From NCBI GenBank assembly GCA_023627715.1, contig JAMAHW010000015.1:434001-498000 (forward strand): 64,000 nt of DNA, given 5' to 3'. Shown here piece by piece: positions 11,760 to 45,740 of this stretch. This DNA comes from Periconia sp. R9002. Taxonomy: Eukaryota; Ascomycota; Dothideomycetes; Pleosporales; Periconiaceae. Every line of letters begins with the position of its first letter. The first letter of the stretch is position 1. The position numbers were made by a program, and so were the translations under genes. The notes below the pieces were generated by a model. That model ran no database searches. It saw only the letters and a list, made by a program, of their open reading frames with translations, and was not told the DNA's origin.

Positions 11760-12884
11760 ATGCCGTCATTCACCCAGTTCAATCCAACGCGATTGCGCTC
11801 CTACGTCTTCCGCCTGCCGCTCACCACCCGCCTGCTGCTCGTCGCCATTGTCGCATTATGGATCGCCGCCATTCCCTTTCCCTGGATCAGGGAAGCTGGC
11901 GCCCTGGCTCCGGACAAGTTTGACCTTACCCAGAGTACGTCTTGTCAGAAACAGCTGCGAGAGAAAGCACCCGAGGTTCTGCGGAGCATTGCTGGAATGG
12001 TCTTGCTGCGCTCAAACAGACACGATTTGGACAATCATGGCTAATTCAGACCTCACGCAGTGCACCGGCTCAATCTTTTCCCCTTGATGCATATCGGCTT
12101 CTTCCACATGTTCTTCAACATCATCGCCCTGACGCCCCTGCTCGAGCGCTTCGAATCCGAGTTCGGCACCATTGTAACATTATCCCTCTTCACCGGGCGT
12201 AAGGCACCACGACAGACTCCACAAACTCCGAACGAAGAAACATCGCTGATGGGAAGCTAGCATTCGGTCTCCTCCCCGGCGCATTATACCTAATAGTAGA
12301 GAAATTTATCTTGCGAGGAAACACTGCTGTTATGGGGTCAAGGTACGTCCATTTGCACCCCCAAACAGTCTTTCCGACCAAACGAGCAACTACTAACATA
12401 TACCCCCAGCGTATGGTTCTTCCTCCTTCTCTCCTCCGAAGCCATAAAAACAAGCAAACAAAACCCATCTTTCAGGTACTTCTCTCTCTCCCACCCCCTC
12501 TCACCCCCAACCACTAACACCAATCCACACAGCCTCGGCCCCTATAAAATCCCGACCTGGACAACCCCCCTCTTTCTCATCCTTCTCACCTCCGCCCTCC
12601 TCCCCTACGTCTCCTTCCTTGGCCACCTCAGCGGCGCCGCAATAGGATACCTTTGGGGCCTCGGATACATCAAATTCCTCGTCCCCCACGAGAAGATACT
12701 CCGCTGGATCGAGACGAAATTGAATTTGTTGGGGAGGCTGCCGCACTATGTGAGTGTGGATCAGAAGACATATGGAAGGTATGGCGTGTTGCCGACGGCG
12801 GGTGCGGCGGGAATACCGCTTGGTGGGAGGGAGAGGGAGCCGAGGAGTCCGCTTCCGGGTGATGAGCAGAGGTTGGGGTCGTAG
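11760..12884 (+). CDS. RBD2: Rhomboid intramembrane serine protease, Rbd2 type
   Basis: Polytopic membrane protease, Golgi/ER-located in the known fungal family; the S. pombe and Aspergillus homologues act in SREBP cleavage. Five exons (11760-11934, 12061-12198, 12261-12342, 12410-12475, 12533-12884) join to 270 residues, the usual size. Hydrophobic segments begin near residue 22 (TTRLLLVAIVALWIAAI). The second helix carries the family pattern HIGFFHMFFNIIAL. The catalytic serine is S132 in the motif G130-S-S132-V, split by an intron. The catalytic histidine is H185 in FLGHLSGAAIGYLWG, with the GxxxG-like packing typical of helix 6. The cytosolic tail is short. The ATG at 11760 is the first in frame; upstream only a GTG could extend it. 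Confidence 0.93.
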
Positions 12885-13577
12885 GGCTGCGAAAATATGG
12901 GTTTTAAAAAATTCGAGGTGGTGGTGGTGGCCTTGCATAGCATATGCTTACTTTTCGTATGAGCGTTTTCGCTGTTGATGCTTTTTCTTCTTCTGCGCCG
13001 CAAACATACTACTTGGGTGGGTGCGTTGATTTACCCTTCTAAGCTTTGTATTCTTGCTACTTACCTTGTATGAATTGCATGTATGAATGAATGTTTTCTC
13101 GCTCCGTCTGGTGAACGGAGCGGAAAGGAACTGGACTACAAAAAGAAAGGCGTGGTTGATTAATTCTTAGATAGTCGCGTTGAATTCATAATGGTGTGTG
13201 TTAGTGATCTTGAAACTCACATTCCCGTCCAAAGCTGAGAGAATGAGATTGTGAAGTAGACGAGCGATGGATATGATATACCATTTTACTGTGATATTGA
13301 GGAGTTGTTGCACACTTGGACAGTGCAACTTGATTCTGTAGATTCATGTTTAGCTGTGGCCAAATAGTATAACCCGATTGCTGATTGGCCACAGGACCCT
13401 GCAGTGGCTGATAAGTCTCCGCACTCGATGGCAAATCCGCACGAGATTCTTAACTCCACACATTGCAGCATCCGACGATAATCTCGTCCTTGTACATTTC
13501 AGTTTGAGAAAAATCTCCAAACTTATCGATAGTATTGTACGGTCGGTAGTAGTGTTGTAGATCACCAGTCCCAGAAC
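12885..13577. other. Intergenic region, RBD2 3' side to hydroxylase promoter
   Basis: About 690 bp without a plausible gene. The left part should be the RBD2 3' untranslated region, with T-rich stretches near 12966-12995. The right part should be the promoter of the downstream dioxygenase. Short open frames on the minus strand here (up to 103 codons) lack start context and recognisable domains. Confidence 0.5.
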
Positions 13578-15147
13578 ATGGCGAAACGAAAGCGAAATAA
13601 TGCCCACTCCAATGCCGTCAAGAAACACGCAACGGCAACGGGAATCCCAAGTCCCCCACAAGAACTGAATGCATCAGCGGGACCCGCGAGCTTGGAATCG
13701 GTGACCTCGCCTGAGGAAGTCGAAATTGCCGTTGAAACTCTCCAGACATTGGCACAGCATCCGGCCCTCATCAAGTCCAAAGGGTGTAAAGATCTTAGGA
13801 AAGCAGTGTACGATTTCCGCCAAGCGAGCACAACGGGCATGATATCGGCAGGTAGGTATCAATGATATATATATCTACGAAATGAGCATTGGTTGAACTA
13901 ACCCAATAACTAGAGGGGAGCAACCTTACCGCACGCATTTCTGCTGCGCTCACAGATGGCAATTACCTCGATGCACGCATCATGTTAGCCGAGATGCGCA
14001 TCAGGAAAGAGACGCCAACATTAGGTGCTCTCTGCCGCTGGGTCCGTACCCTTGATGTTGTTTCCGGGCTATCTATCCACGTTCGAGTGCCTAGCCAAAG
14101 TGTTGGAGGTGGCAATGCCCACAACAATCAGTTAATCGAAGTTCTGGATGCTATACTTCGAGTAACGGGCCCCACTGATACAACTTCACATGGAACAGAT
14201 GCCTCCTCAGAGCCAATCTCATTGCAGTCGACTTGGGATTTGCGTAATGTCAGCGAGCCTACCCGACAAGTGCGGCAAAGCATCGCAGACAAGTCCATCT
14301 TCAACCTATGTCCCCCCGGCTTCAAAGAGAGCTTTAGAATCATCGAAACGACCCCTGGACCTGCACGCAAACCACCCAATCTTCATCCTGCTGTCCTATT
14401 CGCGTCGAAAAACGACACCGTGTTACTTGGGAAAGCCCCCAAAACGCATTGTCATAAACACCCGATAGTACCGAACCTGAGGCTCATCCGGGATGTTCTC
14501 ACGCCCGAAGAGTGCTCGTCTATTATCGCTGCTGGCGAGACGATGGAGTTTATCCCAGATGCACCAATGCGACCTCAGGGAGAAGATACTAGCGTCCTTG
14601 CCCACAACTTCTACTGGATAGTGGATGAGGCATTCCATGACAAGCTTTGGAGTAGAGTAAATGAATTCGTGCCGAGTGATGTTGCAGGTCGACAGGTTCG
14701 GGGCATCAACCGAAGGTTTAGAGTTTACAGATATGTTCCAGGGGCAGAATACAGATGTCACATAGGTGAGTAGTTCTACGTTTTTTCGGATGATTACTGA
14801 CTATTGAACTATTAGATGGAGCGTGGCCACCTTCGGGTATAGATCCTGCGACTGATGCCTACCAATACGATGCCTCGCCAAAAGACGCGCGTCAATCTTC
14901 CTTGTTCACATTCTTGATCTACCTGAACGATGATTTCAAGGGCGGTGAAACGACCTTCTTCATCCCGAGCGTGAAGGAGGGAGTGATTAACGCCTACCCT
15001 GTGAAACCGATCATGGGCAGCGTTGCTGTGTTCCCTCACGGTGAAGCGCAGGGAGCTTTGCTACACGAAGGGACTGGAGTTGTTGAGGGCGCGAAATATG
15101 TCATTCGCACGGATGTTGAGTATGATGTTGATGTGACTGTTCCATAA
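13578..15147 (+). CDS. Prolyl 4-hydroxylase-type 2-oxoglutarate/Fe(II) dioxygenase
   Basis: Likely hydroxylates a protein substrate using 2-oxoglutarate, O2 and Fe(II). Exons 13578-13851, 13914-14765 and 14816-15147 give 485 residues. The C-terminal half (about 290-485) is a P4Hc domain opening with LRLIRDVLTPEECSSIIAAG. The iron ligands are H374 and D376 (CHIDGAW, interrupted by an intron) and H459 (LLHEGTGVVEGAKYVI); K469 is placed to bind the 2-oxoglutarate carboxylate. GGETTFF is also typical. The N-terminal 280 residues are unusual: a basic start (MAKRKRNNAHS) that could be a nuclear signal, then a helical region (ALTDGNYLDARIMLAEMRIR) I cannot assign. No signal peptide is seen, so it is not an ER collagen-type enzyme. 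The physiological substrate is unknown. Confidence 0.88.
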
Positions 15148-15341: not shown

Positions 15342-16110
15342 ATGGCGCGACCTGGAACTTTTTCCAACATCTTTCTAGGTCCGCATGCTCAACCAAAGAT
15401 GGCGGCACCCAGGACACCAAACGGCGTAGAGAAGCGCCGGAATAAGAAAAATAAGAGTCGCACAATCGGTGAGTCGCAAAAAAGATTCAAAATTCCCATA
15501 GTGCCAAGAACCCAAAAAGGCTGATTCTGAATTGGGTAGTCGACCTATCTTCCTCGTCGTCGGAAAGCTCGACCGAGAGTGAGAGTGACAGCGATGCCTC
15601 CGAAAAGAAGAGTGGGAAGGTGAATGGAGCGACGAAGGAGGTATGTGAACTGGATTGAAAAATTAATCGGGACATCGAAAGGCTTGAAGCTAAGATTTCG
15701 CTCCAAAGGCTTCCGCACCACACCCAACACCCACTCCCAAGAAATCAAAAACCAAAAAGCAGAAGAAGCAAGAAGACCAAGATCAAGATACAGAAATGTT
15801 ATATGTCGATCAACCATCAACCACCAACTCAACTTCAGTTTCGGAAGAACCAGCATCAGCACCGTCCTCCAAGGCCAAACCAAAATCCGCGCCGTTGTCA
15901 ACACGCGCGGTAGAAGAGGAGTATTCCGCACTTTATCTGCGCACGGTCACGGCTGAGCTCGGGGATGATCTGATCAAAGTGCGCGAGGCGCAGGATTTCA
16001 AGAGTAGTAGTTTGGCCATGTTGAGACATGCGCTGAGGCAGGGCGAGAGTATGTACGATGTGGATGAGAAGAGGCGCGTGGTTGGTGCGACTGTGGGACA
16101 GACGGTGTGA
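15342..16110 (+). CDS. RSA3: Ribosome assembly protein Rsa3
   Basis: Nucleolar factor of 60S ribosomal subunit maturation. Three exons (15342-15468, 15540-15640, 15709-16110) give 209 residues. The N-terminal half is low-complexity and charged: a basic patch (KRRNKKNKSR), an Ser/Glu acidic patch (SSSSSESSTESESDSDASE) and a lysine-rich patch, as in many nucleolar proteins. The conserved Rsa3 domain is C-terminal, about residues 130-185, with YLRTVTAELGDDLIKVREA and DFKSSSLAMLRHALRQG. The RSA3 call rests on this C-terminal signature. It converges with the minus-strand SKI3 fragment, leaving only 176 bp between stop codons. Confidence 0.85.
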
Positions 16111-16286
16111 GGAGTGTGTATGTTCAAGCCGTTTCTTGTGACGATGAAATGGTGTATAGTATGAGAGGATGATTGCATAGCTGTGGCATAAAACAAATGA
16201 ATACCGATACCCCTTTTGCAAGATTTTGGAGTCCAAAGACGTCCTACGAAGCTCAATAAGTAGGCGACCTTCCCATAACCCACAAT

Positions 16287-17206
16287 TCAATACGCCTCAA
16301 CTTCCTGCCCAGGTCTCCACTCCAACTCAATCTGCCACGCCAGCAAAAACGGATGTCGGATAATAACCATATCATGCGCAAGCTTCATCACCTTCTCCCT
16401 CTTCTCCGCCTTCTTCCCCGTAGGGAGCGCAAGTAGCGCATCATACGCCCGCTGCAGCAACTTCTCCTCATACACCCTCCGCTGCTCATCATCCCTCGTC
16501 CAATCAATGATTCCCTGATATATCTCCTCCAGTGGACTCGCCTCAAATATTTCGTTCTTCACAGACATGGTAGTTCCTTCCAATGTCGCGCCAATGCGCG
16601 TTTTGCGCTCTGCGATTAACCGCTTGATTGTTTGCTCCTCCTCGGTTTCGTGTATTTCGGCGATGCGCATGAAAGTGGTGGCGGGGTTTTGTAGGCGTCC
16701 CTCGAGGTAGGAGTACACGGGCGACGTGGGAAGTTGAGTGGCGAGCGCGCGAGCGTATTGCTGCTTTGTGCCGTGGGTGCGGGCGTGGTTGACGAGTTTG
16801 TCGATGGCGGTTTGGGATTTATGTGCATCGTCTCTAAATTCTAGTCAGACGCGCTTCCTTTGACTTTTTCTCTCTACATCGTTACGTACAGATCCGCATA
16901 GATTTCTGCCAATTTCAAGCCCACCCGCGTGTTTTCGTCGACTTTGGCGGCTTTTTGCTTCTCGTACAGACCCCGCAGTCCCAACCACGCCTGAGGATCG
17001 TCCGGCTTCAATTGAGTCGCATCTGTGTAGGCGGCTGCAGCCTCGTCGAACTTTCCAAGCCCATCGTTCGCACGTCCCAGGAAGAGTTTCGCGAAGTAGT
17101 TCTGGGGATCTTTTTCCAGGACTGTATTGGCTTGCTCGATCGCTTCATCCCACTTTTTGGAGTCAATGGCCGATTTGGCGGCCTTGAGTGCAGCTTTGGT
17201 AGACAT
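16287..17206 (-). CDS. SKI3: Ski3 N-terminal fragment (split superkiller scaffold, first part)
   Basis: Encodes what is normally the first part of Ski3, the tetratricopeptide scaffold of the cytosolic Ski complex that feeds RNA to the exosome. Exons 17206-16890 and 16833-16287 give 287 residues. It begins like canonical fungal Ski3 (MSTKAALKAAKSAIDSKKW), followed by TPR units (AKLFLGRANDGLGKFDEAA, DATQLKPDDPQAWLGL). The conserved region SPVYSYLEGRLQNPATTFM and KLLQRAYDALLALPTGKKA then follows. The last family-like block is AWQIELEW, after which it adds only RPGQEVEAY and stops. In an intact Ski3 the sequence would continue into the block that starts the neighbouring plus-strand gene. It shows no frameshift, so it looks functional rather than decayed. 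An upstream in-frame ATG at 17236 is possible but less likely. Confidence 0.9.
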
Positions 17207-17555
17207 TTTGGCAGGAGGTGTTGGAGGGGAAGGCAATGTCTAGGCCCTGGAAGGAGCGGTCGTGTTATGTGTACTCCATCGGCAGCTGGGGACTGGTGAT
17301 AAAGTGTGTGGAGTGAAAGTGGAGTGTCTGTAAAGGCAATGACGTCCCGCACTAGCCGAAAGCTTAATTCAGCCCTACAGGAAGGAAACACACAAACATC
17401 ATGACTTACTTCGCGTAACTTAACCCCACTACCACTCGTACTGTTTACCTTCCCACCTAGAACACACACTCCTTTGAAGTTGACCACCTTTAGTTTGTTT
17501 CTGCGCAGAGCCACTCCACAAACTCTCTCTCTTCACCTCAACGAGTTCGGTCACA
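17207..17555. promoter_or_regulatory. Bidirectional promoter between the two SKI3 halves
   Basis: 349 bp separate the outward-facing start codons of the N- and C-terminal SKI3 fragments. A pyrimidine-rich run (about 17500-17545) precedes the plus-strand ATG, which has the good context GTCACAATGGCG. Under the inversion model this interval holds the ancestral SKI3 promoter, now reversed, so it would drive the N fragment natively and the C fragment from its far side. Confidence 0.6.
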
Positions 17556-20500
17556 ATGGCGTCACGCGCAGACAGCGCGCATGATCTGCTCGATCTGGAT
17601 ATACTAACGTTACGGCAGTACATCCAGCTATTCCCCGAAGAAGGTTTATCCAAGGTTTTGACGGGCTACTTAAGTAGTGGCGTATCAAGATATCCGCTCG
17701 TGGAGAAGGCGGATGATGAAGCGCCGGATTTGAGTGAGGGCGGGGTAGCTCTGAATCAGAATGTTGCCCTTTCACAGGAGGACTGTCTGGTTATGATGAC
17801 CGTAAGCTTTTTAGATGTCTACATATCTAAGGCTCGATAGTTGACTAGGACGTAGGAAGGCATTCTCGAAGCCAAAAACTCGCCACTTGCTCATTGCTTA
17901 CTGGGGGACTACTACCTCTCGTTGGAAGAGTATGAAAGCGCCGTCGAAACCACCAGGAAAGGCTTGAAGCTCGCTGCAATCGAAGCCAAAAAGAGTGATT
18001 TGGCGTTCCAGAGGTCTGTCACACTCAGTCTGAGGCGTTGAACGGGACTAATCATCAGCACATAGGACGAAAGATGCACTGAGCAGCACCCTTGCTACCG
18101 CGCTGGTTTACTATCAGACGCCACGGAATCATCCCGAGGCGAAGCAAATCTTTCAGTCTATGCTAAAACGCAAGCCTCAATTTACGCCTGCTTTGATTGG
18201 AATCGGCCTGATCCTAGAAGAGGAGGAAGAGTATGGCCAAGCCGTCGATTTTCTCGAGCAAGCTCTGAAGCAGGACCCATCGAATGGTCGTATCGGAGCT
18301 GAAGCTGCGTGGTGTCAGGCTCTCAACGGTGACTTCGAAACAGGTCTTGCTAGGCTGCAAAAATATTTGGACTATCCGCAATTAGACGCGTCGACCAAAC
18401 GTGGTAGAGAACTTCTTGCGCAAACGCTATATAGAATTGGTGTCTGCATATGGGAGCTTAACCCGTCGAAGTCTTCCCGTCGGGACCGCCAGGGCGCCTA
18501 TGCGAAGTTCCTTGCCGCGATTAAAGCAAATCCCAATTACGCACCCCCTTACACAAAACTTGGAATCTTTTACGAGGACTACAGCAAAGATAAGAAGAGA
18601 GCGAGACAGTGTTTCCAAAAGGCTTTTGAGCTCGCTTCCTCTGAAGTTGTTGCAGCTGAACGACTTGCTCGGTTGTTCGCTAATCAAGGCGAATGGGACA
18701 TTGTCGAAGTAGTGGCTCAGCGTGTGGTAGATTCAGGAAAAGTACGAATAACCCCAGGCTCCAAAAAGAAGGGTGTCAGTTGGCCCTATTCTGCTCTGGG
18801 AGTTGTTCAAATGAACAAGCAGGAGTATCAAAAAAGTGTCGTCTCATTTTTGTCGGCACTCCGTATCAGTCCAGATGATTATCATTCCTACATTGGGCTA
18901 GGCGAAAGCTATCATAATTCAGGACGCTACAACTCTGCAGCCCGAGCGTTCAACTACGCCGAGAATCCGACGGATGGCGTTGTTATGAAAAAGCAGGACT
19001 CTGAGAGTTGGTTCGCCAAGTATATGCTTGCAAACGTACACAGAGAACTCAGCGAATTCGACGAGGCTATCAAACGTTATGAAGAAGTTTTGGTAGAGCG
19101 ATCTCAGGAGTTTGGTGTGTCTATTGCACTTGTGCAAACTCTAATAGAGAAAGCATGGGCATGTTTGGAAACTGGTTTCTTCGGCGAAGCAGCTGATAGT
19201 GCTACTCGAGCTATCGAGGTTGGATTGACGATTGCTGGATATAAGCCTGATGCTTTCAATCTATGGAAAGCTGTTGGCGACGCGTGCGGCATCTTCACGT
19301 TGGTCCAAGCAAAGTTGGAACAGTTTCCAATACGAACCGTGCTTGATCTTTTGAACAGCAAGTCCAATGTCGACTTGGATTACGATGAACACAAGGACAT
19401 CGATGGTGTTGGCAAGGAACAACTTGAAAAAATAGCATCGGATGAGACACGACTTGTACAGAAAGCAATAGGCTCGTCCCTTCTTTTGCACAAGCGAGCT
19501 ATAGCAAGCTGTGCGCACGATGTCCATGCTCAAGCTGTCGCTTGGTACAACTTGGGCTGGGCAGAGTATCGAGCTCATATATGTCTAGAGCAGGAGACTG
19601 CACAAGACCAAAAGTTGACAAAGTTCTTACGAGCGGCTATGCGGTGCTTCAAACGGGCAATCGAGCTGGAGGCCGGGAATGCCGAATTCTGGAACTCGCT
19701 CGGTGTTATCACGACCACCTTGAATCCAAAGGTTGCTCAACATGCCTTTGTACGCTCTCTCCACTTGAACGAGCGCAGTGTGAGTACCTGGACAAACCTT
19801 GGAACTCTCTACCTATTACAGAACGACCAGGAGCTGGCCCATCAGGCCTTTTCCCGTGCACAATCTACGGACCCTGACTACGCTTTGGCATGGGTAGGAG
19901 AAGGCATCATTGCATTGCTTTTTGGTGATACCTCTGAAGCTTTGTCCCATTTCACCCACGCTTTTGAGCTTTCGGATTCGTCGTCTTTGATTACGAAACG
20001 ACAGTTTGCGGCGTCAACCTTTGAATATCTACTTTCATCACCCTCGGCGTCTAACGACATTACCAAGCTTATACAACCTCTATTTGCTCTCCACCAGTTG
20101 GTCTATCAAGCACCGTACGATATTCCACACAAACATCTGGCAGCTCTATATCTCGAGCGTATTGGCGATCACGACGCCGCTATCCAAGCTCTGACAAGCA
20201 TATGCGAAGCAGCGGAGCAAGATTACGAGAAGTCGGAGTCTACTTCCGCACTTGTACGCTACGCTCAAGCCAAAAACGATCTCGCTCGAAATCTCCTCGC
20301 TAGCCACTCCAACAGCGCCGCCGTAGAGGAAGCCGAGACAGCCATTGAACTGCTCTTAGACATCAACTCCGAAGATGGCCAGTCCGTCATCAGTGCTGAA
20401 GCCTTGTCCAAAACCCTGCTCTCAGCACGCCTGACAGCAGGTCTAGCCCATTTCTTCCAAGGCGCTATCGAAAAGGCAATTCCCTACTTCCGCACCTGTC

Positions 20501-21105
20501 TCGAAGCCACAAAATCCAACCCGGACATCATCTGCCTCCTCGCCGAAGTCCTCTGGGCCAAGGGCGACGGCAACGCAAAGGAAATCGCCCGCGATCAGCT
20601 CTTCACAGCCGCCGAGACACATCCTTTACACATTGGTATCGTCACACTGCTAGGCGCCATGGCCGTTATCGACGAAGATGAAGATACCATGGAAGCTATT
20701 AAAGACGACCTCTCCCTCCTCCGCACCAACAAAGACCTGACCCCCGACCAACTCGTCCGCGTCGAGAAGGTGATTGAAGCCATCAGCTTCTTCCTCGGCG
20801 GGGAAGAAAAGGAAATCGACGAAGCGCGCACCAGCGTTATGCTGGCGCCGTGGAAGAACGTCGGCTGGACACAGCTCGCGGACGCTTCTGCGAATAGTGA
20901 TCGTGAGGGGAGCGAGTTTGCGGCTGCGATGGCCAAGGAGACGGCTAGGAGGACTGTGCCGCCGAATGGCCAGCTGAGTGCTGTGGGGTTAGCGGGCGCG
21001 ATGGCTGGGACGGGGATTGTGGGGGATGTGCAACGGGCGATTGTTCTTGCTCCTTGGGCGAAGGAGGGGTGGAGTGTGCTGGCTGGGTGTGTGGAGAGTG
21101 GCTGA
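17556..21105 (+). CDS. SKI3: Ski3 C-terminal fragment (split superkiller scaffold, main part)
   Basis: Encodes residues that follow the minus-strand fragment in an ordinary Ski3. Exons 17556-17801, 17856-18013 and 18066-21105 give 1147 residues. After a short lead (MASRADSAHDL) it picks up the family sequence LDLDILTLRQYIQLFPEEGL exactly where the other fragment stops. It carries many TPR-like repeats, for example LKRKPQFTPALIGIGLILEE, AIKANPNYAPPYTKLGIFYE and RALRIS-type units through the C-terminus. The block ITPGSKKKGVSWPYSALGVV is typical of Ski3. In the yeast Ski complex the C-terminal arm of Ski3 holds Ski2 and Ski8 and the N-terminal arm projects outward; an independent C-terminal chain could therefore still bind both. 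How the N chain is held is unknown. The coding region is intact. Confidence 0.93.
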
Positions 21106-21410: not shown

Positions 21411-22421
21411 TCAACTGGCCTCTCCAAAATCCATATGCCCCGTCTCCTCGGCATGCTTGACAGCGCCCTTCTCGCCCGCGCCCTTCCAACCACATAGATT
21501 GCACTTGATGTTGAATTTCTGCGTATCCGTGAAGTAATGCTTCTTGCGGAGCTCGCCGCACAACTGCCTCGCAGCCTCGAGTATCGTATCATCGCTCGCA
21601 TCGAAGAGCTTAACATCGTTCTCCGTATCGTACGTCGGTCCACCCTCAGGAACAAACGCCACCGTATCGTAATGGATGCCAGAGTAGACGAGTATGCAGC
21701 GTTTCGGACGTCCTTCGTTGAACCGATCCACGCGCAGATCCTGGACGTTGATACTGCAGATTTCGATGTCGAATTCTTTGGAGAGGATGCTTAGCTCGAT
21801 GCCGCCGCCCCACGAGTCAGAGTATGAGATCCACTGGCAGTATTCGTCGGGTTTGCGCTGCAGGATGGCCTCGTTGTACATTTCCGGGTCTGCTTGTATG
21901 GCTTGCGCGACGAGGGAGCGCAGTTCGGTCATTGAGTCTAGAGATGAGGAGAGAACGGCGCTGCCGAGGGCGCGGAACATGCATGAGTTGTCGTCGGGCA
22001 TAACGCGGAGAACCATTGTGCCGCCTCGCGAGGGAACTGGGATTTCTGGGGTGTCCTTTAGTAGGGCTTCATTTTGCTTCCGTTGGAGTGAGAGAGGAGC
22101 GGAGGGGTTGGAGGGGTTGGAGGAGGATGATTCGGAAGCTTGTTTGGCGGCGGCGGCGGCGGCCTCGCTGGGATCGCCTGTTGCTTTCCCTATCACTATG
22201 AGCTGTGCGCCGTTGAGTTTGAGGTCGGTTTCGGAGAGAGGTGTGGATAGTCCGTAGAGGGATGGGTCGAGCGGTTGAGGTGGAAAACCCCATTTCAGAT
22301 CGTAGAGAGGGAGCTCTGTGGTAGCAGTTATTGTTGACAGGAGGTCGGAGACGGCTGCGTTGTCTTCGAGAGAGATGGTGTGCATGCCATTCGGCGCGCG
22401 AAGCCGTATGCGAATCGTCAT
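21411..22421 (-). CDS. OTU1: Ubiquitin thioesterase OTU1 (YOD1 family)
   Basis: Cysteine deubiquitinase that works with Cdc48/p97 in ER-associated degradation. One uninterrupted exon of 336 residues. Residues 1-80 form a ubiquitin-like/UBX-like domain (IRIRLRAPNGMHTISLEDNA) that in the family binds Cdc48. An alanine/serine-rich linker follows. The OTU domain spans about 130-260, with catalytic C147 in PDDNSCMFRALGSA and histidine H250 in VYSGIHYDTV. A C-terminal C2H2 zinc finger closes the protein: IKCNLCGWKGAGEKGAVKHA with EETGH. All domains are in the family order. A TATA-like AT run lies about 100 bp upstream, at 22518-22528. Confidence 0.95.
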   Translation of the reverse strand: MTIRIRLRAPNGMHTISLEDNAAVSDLLSTITATTELPLYDLKWGFPPQPLDPSLYGLSTPLSETDLKLNGAQLIVIGKATGDPSEAAAAAAKQASESSSSNPSNPSAPLSLQRKQNEALLKDTPEIPVPSRGGTMVLRVMPDDNSCMFRALGSAVLSSSLDSMTELRSLVAQAIQADPEMYNEAILQRKPDEYCQWISYSDSWGGGIELSILSKEFDIEICSINVQDLRVDRFNEGRPKRCILVYSGIHYDTVAFVPEGGPTYDTENDVKLFDASDDTILEAARQLCGELRKKHYFTDTQKFNIKCNLCGWKGAGEKGAVKHAEETGHMDFGEAS

Positions 22422-44110: not shown

Positions 44111-45740
44111 TTATGCGACATTTTTACCGACGCTGGGTGTCTGTACACCTGGTTTTTCCATGTGCGTAGCTACTTCAAGCACGCTCGTCGCACTCTCGGT
44201 ACCATCCTCTACGCTCATGCCCAGTTTCCTCCTGGCAACCTCTTTCTGCCCCAGACCTACTACGTTGTCCACGGGTGACTGAGTGGCGCTTCCCTCTACT
44301 TGAGCATCGATTTCACTTTCGGTGGGCTGCAGCCAAGGCGCAGAGAGGCATCGTTTGACAAGTCGGACAGTCGTTTCGTCAGTGGGAGCAAAGTGATTCC
44401 CACTTGTTGTGAGAAGGTAGAGAAGCCGGCAGATATCGTCTTTCTTGTAATGCGGCGGTTTACTGATCTGACTATTGGTGAGGATCGGGTGCAGGACGCG
44501 AAGATATGTGTGTCGAAGTGCATTAGCAGCGGGGGAATCGGCGGGTAAATCAATCAAGTTCCTTAATATGACATCGACGAGAACATGTAAATCGTTCGTG
44601 TAGAAATATTCGGCTGTCTGGGGGTTTCCGAAGATGAGATATAACACTTTGAGGATGAGGAGCTGAAGTGAAGTCTCCGATTCCCTGTTCAGGAGGAGGA
44701 TCAAATTACAACCGAATGTCTTGTAAGTGGTGCCATGGGTAGAAATGGCCTTAATGACGCGGTTTGTCATGCCGGCACGGCCATCGTGTTGTTGCGTTGT
44801 GGATGCGACGAGGTATTGCTCGTTCAGTACCAACTAACGGATTATTAGATTCTGGCAGCATAAGCCATAGAGATTGACGTACCAGAACGCGTATCACGGG
44901 GTAATGATATGGATCATCGACGTCGCCAGAGACGCCTTCTATGATTTCGAGAAGGTAAAGAATGAACGAATCATCGACGGCCACTGCAGTCGCGGGTCAG
45001 CATGCTGTACTGCGTAGACTGTATGGTAGCCTGAAATAATTCCACGGTCCCGACGTACTGAAGTCTTCCCATTTGAGCCTCTGTATGCGCGAAGACTCAT
45101 ACATGAGCTCTAGCAATATCTGATGCAGCTTCGTATCCTCCTGCACAGTTGGATTTTGTATTAAATCCACCAGCCTTGGAAAGATGCCCTCCTCGTACAT
45201 CATTTCGAATGTAGAGTCGTTTCCGTTATTGCGGCCATCGAAGAGAAGAAAGGCCGACACCATGTGGAGTGTGGGGTTATCATCTTCCTGGTGGAGAGTG
45301 AGCGAGGGCAAAGAAGCGGGGAGGATAGCGGGCACACGAACCTGGAGAAGGCAGTACAAGATCTGGCGGCGCACATATTCCTTGTGGGAGTTGAACAGCT
45401 CGCCTTGAAGGAGGCGGTATACGCATTTTGCTATGTTGTAGTCGGTTTGGAGGTATTCGGCTATGGGTGGTCAACGGCACGTCTCTTTTGGGGTTTGCGA
45501 TAGCGGGCGCGTACACTTGTAGCTGGTTGTGATTTCGAGATAGGAGCGGAGAGCATTATCTATAAATTCGTGCTCCTGGCAGCGGGTGGAGACAATGTCG
45601 TCGAGCTCTGCAGGGCGGAAGGGGGATCATTAGTGAGTGTATGAGGGCGTGGATATGTAGAAGAAGGGTTGCACTGGACAGTACTCACCATCCCAGAACT
45701 GCGTCTCATTGTCGAGGTTGTAGGATACCTCAAAGGCCAT
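44111..45740 (-). CDS. LDB17: Ldb17/Dip1 family actin regulator (SPIN90 leucine-rich domain)
   Basis: Endocytic cortical-patch protein; in fission yeast Dip1 activates the Arp2/3 complex without a pre-existing filament. Six exons: 45740-45689, 45607-45515, 45460-45342, 45287-45059, 44983-44883 and 44833-44111, giving 438 residues. The family core is plain: NPTLHMVSAFLLFDGR, TFGCNLILLLNRESETSLQL, NPQTAEYFYTNDLHVLVDVI and ALRHTYLRVLHPILTNSQ. The C-terminal 100 residues are hydrophilic; in Ldb17 this part often holds proline motifs, but few are visible here. The third intron (45341-45288) has a GTTCGT donor, is 54 nt long and free of stops, so an 18-residue insertion is possible if it is retained. 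The start MAFEVSYNLDNETQFWD is the first ATG. Confidence 0.9.

Follow-up and report, generated by a model that had tools for sequence, protein, structure and literature searches.

Introduction

Ski3/TTC37 is the tetratricopeptide repeat (TPR) scaffold of the Ski2-Ski3-Ski8 complex, and it is one chain in yeast and human, as seen in solved structures, and in the fungi of the 120 single-chain matches listed in this study. We know of no clear role for its N-terminal arm. Here, we describe a locus of Periconia sp. R9002 (Dothideomycetes; Pleosporales) at which the same sequence and fold are spread over two polypeptides, encoded by two divergent genes that we call SKI3-N and SKI3-C and separated by a cut near the base of the arm. 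The locus lies in a stretch of 64,000 nucleotides (the window; C15:434001-498000, contig JAMAHW010000015.1) within a 42.9-Mb, 267-contig assembly. Relative to single-chain Ski3, the N chain carries 3-15 new residues after the cut, and the C chain has a new start that begins with MAS.

The nearest precedent is split-Doa10 of Kluyveromyces (PMC3464245), and with it nuclear fission of a gene into cooperating subunits is already known. Split-Doa10 is likewise a nuclear fission at the base of a fungal clade with the parts kept as neighbours, and it is reported that its two fragments bind each other and together make up an active enzyme. Its parts are arranged in tandem, with a promoter in the 508-bp intervening sequence, and the fission is found at the level of a genus, whereas the two SKI3 genes lie head to head and their split is order-level or wider. 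In addition, about 100 loop residues are apparently missing from split-Doa10 relative to the Saccharomyces cerevisiae protein, whereas split Ski3 lacks none. The cox2 gene has likewise been turned from one gene into two complementary genes (PMC5374615; in Dielis wasps, PMC9895450), but this gene is mitochondrial, and its split was insertional, to go by the title of PMC5374615, rather than the result of a nuclear inversion. In the same class as Periconia, the Dothideomycetes, mesosynteny is a documented process that re-orients genes within chromosomes, and gene reordering is attributed mostly to intrachromosomal inversions; the available part of this account describes no inversion that split a conserved gene into two lasting genes (PMC3516569).

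The original prediction, made from the letters of the window, knew of no description of a two-chain Ski3 of this kind, and the literature searched agrees with it: we found no publication on Ski3 with Dothideomycetes or on the Ski complex with Pleosporales, and none of the superkiller or Ski3 publications listed dealt with gene fission. Within that literature, the fission of Ski3, a head-to-head fission without sequence loss and a fission across a fungal order and its allies appear to be new.

Two complete genes for one scaffold

SKI3-N is complete, with 287 residues in two exons from ATG to stop (17206-16287, minus strand), and so is SKI3-C, with 1147 residues in three exons (17556-21105, plus strand), also from ATG to stop. 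The original prediction had described Ski3 as two complete, oppositely oriented genes with these same coordinates, lengths and strands, and the clean frames and proper splice sites that it reported are borne out by the splice models and translations of both halves. As each half has its own start and stop and the two lie on opposite strands, the single polypeptide of ~1400 residues that is the usual Ski3 architecture is not encoded here; that architecture is not treated as a requirement of the family. The parts of the two genes are as follows:

16890..17206, minus strand: SKI3-N exon 1, ATG at 17206, TPR repeats of the N-terminal arm (splice model, translation, Pfam TPR matches)
16834..16889, minus strand: SKI3-N intron, 56 nt, GTACGT..TTAG
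16287..16833, minus strand: SKI3-N exon 2, PF18833 (TPR_22), end AWQIELEW-RPGQEVEAY-stop; matches yeast Ski3 4-295
17207..17555, no strand: interval between the two ATGs, 349 bp, presumed shared or back-to-back promoter
17556..17801, plus strand: SKI3-C exon 1, ATG at 17556, first helices MASRADSAHDLLDLDILTLRQYIQLFP.. (splice model, translation)
17802..17855, plus strand: SKI3-C intron 1, 54 nt
17856..18013, plus strand: SKI3-C exon 2 (splice model, translation)
18014..18065, plus strand: SKI3-C intron 2, 52 nt
18066..21105, plus strand: SKI3-C exon 3, main TPR superhelix through the stop (TPR family matches)

The borders of the SKI3-C introns are GTAAGC..GTAG and GTCTGT..ATAG; many other frame-keeping choices are possible for them, and these were chosen by splice sites and family fit. 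The whole assembly holds one copy each of SKI3-N and SKI3-C, the latter searched for with the reading frame that includes the third exon (1017 residues). No intact single-chain SKI3, which the prediction had named as a finding that would speak against it, was detected in these 42.9 Mb. Among the matches listed, the closest named ones are a protein of Periconia digitata for N (87%) and one of Periconia macrospinosa for C (93%).

Both halves can be recognized as Ski3. With a profile built from 49 N chains, yeast Ski3 is matched over residues 4-295 (E 1.3e-31), and residues 67-1026 of the P. digitata C chain match yeast residues 400-1332 (352 bits, E 5.9e-105); residues 9-50 of the same chain fall in register on yeast 295-336, but this match is weak alone (1.7 bits). 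As the window proteins are encoded in several exons and hence are not contiguous in the DNA, the P. digitata chains were used for structure modelling. The N model (predicted local distance difference test score, pLDDT, 91.7) has 14 helices, with a complete last helix pair and a disordered tail, and 277 of its residues align at 3.4 Å with residues 2-299 of the yeast chain 4buj_B. The C model (pLDDT 85.4, predicted template modelling score, pTM, 0.65) has helices at 8-40, a disordered loop at 50-70 and then the main array, and its residues 7-1139 lie on 4buj_B 293-1432 (1055 residues at 4.8 Å). In structure searches with the N half, the scores of other TPR proteins differed from those of Ski3 by no more than 1 to 2 Z units, and unrelated TPR proteins were interspersed among the Ski3 rows for the C half, so that identity as Ski3 rests on sequence and aligned length and not on Z. 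PF18833, which is present in N, is likewise present in four single-chain Ski3 proteins that were scanned. The halves thus have the two features of the Ski3/TTC37 family, an N-terminal arm homologous to Ski3 1-295 and a long C-terminal TPR superhelix, and the genome also holds the partner helicase Ski2, with PF17911 (Ski2_N) above cut-off at C8:291425-291853 and PF08148 at C8:288042-288551.

The low-confidence loop of the SKI3-C model (residues 50-70, window ~17703-17765) lies between helices 8-40 and the main TPR array. In the split and the single-chain sets alike, no block among the first 200 columns of C is less conserved than the one around this loop.

Exactness of the cut

For the alignment, 111 single chains of 1370-1450 residues were used, 9 of the 120 listed having been dropped. 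In all 111, exactly seven residues lie between the EW of the AWxIELEW motif and the next conserved LD block, and the C chain of the window has seven aligned residues at this junction (DSAHDLL over e.g. KDVESLQ). The same pattern is found in the 40 species for which both chains are complete: the N chain ends 3-15 residues (median 9) past EW with a tail unlike the family, the C chain has a few new residues at its start, followed by the full set of seven junction positions, and the two chains sum to 1422-1441 residues, compared with a median of 1401 in the 111 single chains. The statements that almost nothing of the family sequence is missing and that the sum of 1434 in the window is the normal Ski3 size therefore hold. 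No residue of Ski3 is lost or doubled between N and C.

The position of the cut is shared widely. Among the best 120 of 158 N matches, EW lies within the final 30 residues in 117 and DW in two, and one is a truncated chain; counting DW with EW, 119 of the 120 are cut at the same residue. On the C side, a simple pattern placed the start motif near the N-terminus in 74 of the 120 rows listed, and the remaining 46 comprise 5 with a variant start, 2 with the start behind an extension and 39 with a start further down. The cut falls between helices, close to the base of the mobile N-terminal arm of Ski3, and both new ends, the tail of N and the start of C, are alike across genera.

Distribution and single origin

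The N search was limited to proteins of 158-502 residues. All 120 N matches listed are separate proteins, 67 of them exactly 287 residues long, and 17 are shorter than 240 residues and cover only part of N; the matches listed come from many Pleosporales, from Lophium and Lepidopterella (Mytilinidiales) and from Glonium (Gloniales). The C search scored 7999 candidates and gave 1494 matches, of which the best 120 were listed. In Pleosporales, both chains were found separately, cut after the same ELEW motif. By blastp, N matches none of the 120 C rows listed and C none of the 120 N rows, and the C rows of 1243 and 1239 residues, the longest two, carry extensions other than N. The two chains can be paired by contigs of identical size for 49 of the 120 N rows, the shortest of these contigs being 5,933 bp; unpaired rows may be due to the way in which matches were listed and clustered, and they were not counted as separation. 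Five annotations whose tags share a prefix and follow a gene-order style give N and C consecutive gene numbers, a count from which tags of the JGI-style DRAFT kind, which we take not to reflect gene order, were left out. The original prediction had described the split from this one stretch of DNA; the split is real, yet it is not peculiar to this fungus, as it is found in Pleosporales and its N chain also in Mytilinidiales and Gloniales. As the split is common to many relatives, an assembly error, a further objection that the prediction had raised against itself, is no longer a serious concern.

Intact chains were sought with N joined to C as the query, with the N part scored and chains of 789-2510 residues considered. 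This gave 257 matches, and in the best 120, which were listed, the N part is present in every row and C over at least 1000 residues in 118. Macrophomina heads the list (62%, 399 bits), other Botryosphaeriales come next, and further named rows belong to Dothideales, Mycosphaerellales, Venturiales, Aulographales, Trypetheliales, Aspergillus and lichen fungi. No Pleosporales, Mytilinidiales or Gloniales were seen among the named rows of these 120 matches; a single chain from Pleosporales should outrank Macrophomina, and one like those of Glonium, Lophium or Lepidopterella (368-389 bits in the N search) should stand near the top. Since Venturiales and Aulographales, which have single chains, are also placed in Pleosporomycetidae in the NCBI taxonomy, the split is narrower than the whole subclass. 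Hysteriales and Jahnulales were not seen by name in either the split or the single-chain lists. A taxonomy look-up supplied the order names of Periconia, Lepidopterella, Glonium, Lophium, Venturia and Coniosporium, and those of the remaining genera are given as generally used. Scans with the C alignment of viral contigs and of genome contigs, a set with no other fungal genome in it, matched no relative. Two genes in one group of fungi thus jointly cover one orthologue that is single elsewhere, as in a gene fission.

A maximum-likelihood tree of the N region was built from the window, 35 of the 120 listed N rows and 44 of the 120 single-chain rows, comprising named representatives and some deep rows. 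The 36 split rows form one side of one branch (bootstrap 100, Shimodaira-Hasegawa-like approximate likelihood ratio test, SH-aLRT, 96; 200 of 200 bootstrap trees), and this clade adjoins a group of Botryosphaeriales and Coniosporium (95/86). The outgroup does not fall cleanly on one side, with one row amiss; the count of changes is independent of the root. The split is restricted to one clade and takes one change on the tree, which points to a single origin, and because single chains surround the split rows and also occur in yeast and human, the single chain is the ancestral state. Ohm et al. (2012) dated the radiation of Pleosporales to 133-97 million years ago, with a caution about sampling, and the class to beyond 280 million years (PMC3516569), and that estimate puts the age of the split at more than about 100 million years.

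Constraint on the two chains and the position of the arm

In 780 pairs drawn from the 40 species that have two complete chains, N distances are correlated with C distances (r 0.84). The ratio of N to C distance has a median of 1.11 in split chains against 1.01 in single chains (1028 pairs, matched distance range); for distances of 0.1-0.2, the medians are 1.25 and 0.99, respectively. Judged by these distances, the N chain is not decaying, and it may be slightly relaxed. The constraint that persists on both chains is an indirect sign that the two pieces may still work.

In the human complex, the N-terminal arm (TPR 1-8) is reported to be without ordered density (PMC8860381). The yeast cryo-electron microscopy chain 8q9t_E, with 1060 modelled residues, aligns to the C model from residue 297, and the chains of 8qca and 8qcb do so from 662 and 781. 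Going by alignment ranges and chain lengths only, the yeast arm (1 to about 296) seems to be nearly absent from the 8q9t model, and the natural cut seems to lie at about that boundary. For human SKI3, a contact with SKI7 has been placed between TPR 29 and 30 and one with the 40S subunit at TPR 39-40, and the SKI7 site is said to be unconserved in budding yeast (PMC11540850). Both human sites fall in the counterpart of the C half, so that the cut takes off a mobile arm near its base and the sites stay on one chain.

A probable inversion and a proposed two-chain Ski3

The split of Ski3 is in itself near certain. As for its history and outcome, we think it probable that there was one ancient fission, most simply by an in-place inversion, and that the products reassemble as a two-chain Ski3. 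An ancestral SKI3 gene for one chain of about 1400 residues would have been hit, in the ancestor of Pleosporales, Mytilinidiales and Gloniales and after the divergence of Botryosphaeriales, by one rearrangement between two helices of the TPR array, in the simplest case an inversion of the promoter and the first ~280 codons. This would have left SKI3-N and SKI3-C head to head, with short new ends on each, and we infer the same layout in the relatives. A reversed N whose 5' end faces C follows from a single inversion of the promoter and the 5' coding part, and the gene order and strands in the window genome fit such an inversion, as the original prediction had proposed, with a flank that differs from the neighbour in Neofusicoccum. 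From a shared promoter, the two genes would presumably be co-expressed. The N chain would be an autonomously folding arm and the C chain the main scaffold; N would re-dock on the first helices of C (8-40), using the surface along which the two parts meet in intact Ski3, and a working Ski3, assembling with Ski2 and Ski8, would thereby be made from two chains.

The neighbourhood bears on the inversion, and three genes in it are of interest:

15342..16110, plus strand: RSA3 (ribosome-assembly protein 3, PF14615), left neighbour, convergent with SKI3-N; start codon placed by eye
21411..22421, minus strand: OTU1-type deubiquitinase, right neighbour, convergent with SKI3-C
44351..45611, minus strand: Ldb17/SPIN90-like gene, four partial matches at C15:478351-479611

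Further to the left lie a 2OG-Fe(II) oxygenase-like gene (13578-15147, plus strand), with PF13640 at cut-off in one exon and no match in another, and a gene for a rhomboid-like membrane protein, recognized by eye (11760-12885, plus strand). An Rfam scan of the window gave nothing at gathering scores.

Some single-chain Ski3 models are over-long (P0242, P0244, P0259 and P0294; 1641-1796 residues) and carry SPIN90/Ldb17, a C-terminal piece without a name, MAM33 and fungal rhodopsin. They are probably annotation fusions with neighbouring genes and, as such, hints of gene order. The fused model of Neofusicoccum parvum (P0242) has an Ldb17/SPIN90-like protein directly upstream of SKI3, and the neighbourhood of SKI3 and Ldb17 may therefore have been partly kept, with order and strand changed. 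In Aulographum, MAM33 is fused upstream of Ski3, and its homologue here lies on another contig (C10); the end piece of the Phyllosticta paracitricarpa model has no match here and is uninformative. As the genes upstream of SKI3 in Aulographum and Zasmidium are other ones, the Ldb17-like gene is a candidate for the ancestral neighbour.

Five observations weigh against the history and outcome that we favour. First, the Ldb17-like homologue is not beside N but 23 kb off, on the far side of C, so that at least one further rearrangement is needed. The present order and strand would be reproduced by two steps, an inversion of the promoter and N and a second inversion that moves N, C and the right flank off the Ldb17-like gene, which is a construction and not a test. 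Second, the divergent orientation has been seen in the window genome only. Third, C chains of Glonium, Lophium and Lepidopterella are not among the 120 C matches listed. Fourth, N changes faster than it does in single chains, possibly through some relaxation. Fifth, sliding-window conservation in split and single-chain sets showed no consistent outlier at the cut: with the wider distance range, a 20-column window spanning it comes 5th of 273, but with the narrower range it comes 32nd, and the windows at the end of N and the start of C are unremarkable. The columns on either side of the cut are thus not unusually conserved, and they give no positive sign of a new interface.

Three short inverted repeats lie within 16100-17800, including one whose 12-nt arms fall within N and C at a spacing of 1,197 nt. 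Considered as traces of the breakpoints, they were set aside as short and uninformative at the age of the split.

The same two genes, with the same products and function, might also stem from a head-to-head inverted duplication that took in the whole gene, after which one copy lost its C part and the other, in a complementary way, its N part; we regard this as a possible but doubtful origin. By reasoning, it would give the same layout and provide a promoter for each half throughout, with no broken-gene intermediate, but complementary loss should leave overlap or gaps, and the cut is residue-exact with no overlap. The region holds only the two genes and weak TPR-like matches (best E 0.009), and it is intrachromosomal inversion that is documented as the frequent mode in Dothideomycetes (PMC3516569).

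A further alternative accepts the fission and concerns its outcome: N would be outside the Ski complex, as a free or occasionally bound TPR adaptor, and C alone would be the scaffold. We consider this unlikely, as N and C distances are correlated with near-normal constraint on N, linkage is kept on the 49 contigs that hold both genes, the sequences flanking the cut retain the family pattern, and the arm is modelled in the yeast crystal structure (4buj_B 2-299). What speaks for a free N is that it folds alone with high confidence in the model and evolves slightly faster than its single-chain counterpart, and that the missing density of the human arm (PMC8860381) and the ranges of 8q9t, 8qca and 8qcb point to a mobile arm, the covalent link of which is perhaps unneeded by the core.

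Restoration of a single-chain Ski3, by trans-splicing of the transcripts or by protein ligation, found no support and is highly improbable given the stop codon of N right past the cut, the ATG of C and the similarity of both new ends across genera. An artefact of assembly or gene models, to which the window's own assembly could in principle be prone, can practically be dismissed, as many genomes and metagenomes that were sequenced separately share this cut, which lies at one and the same residue in 119 of the 120 N rows listed (DW counted with EW), and the rows in the tree form one clade.

Implications

Annotation is affected as well: among the matches listed, either half of a split Ski3 may go under Superkiller protein 3, TPR-like protein or hypothetical protein. 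A large clade with a detached yet retained arm is a natural experiment on the role of the arm and on the need for a covalent link to the rest of Ski3. With the proposed inversion and reassembly, a chromosome inversion could have made two lasting genes out of a single one in a core pathway, with no residue lost. Tentatively, the Ski3 arm of Pleosporales and their allies might even be a separable extra subunit on a core of Ski2, Ski3-C and Ski8, the loading of which could be regulated. If this is true, an inversion within a gene would have given a core eukaryotic machine a new subunit, one that has lasted for about 100 million years or more.

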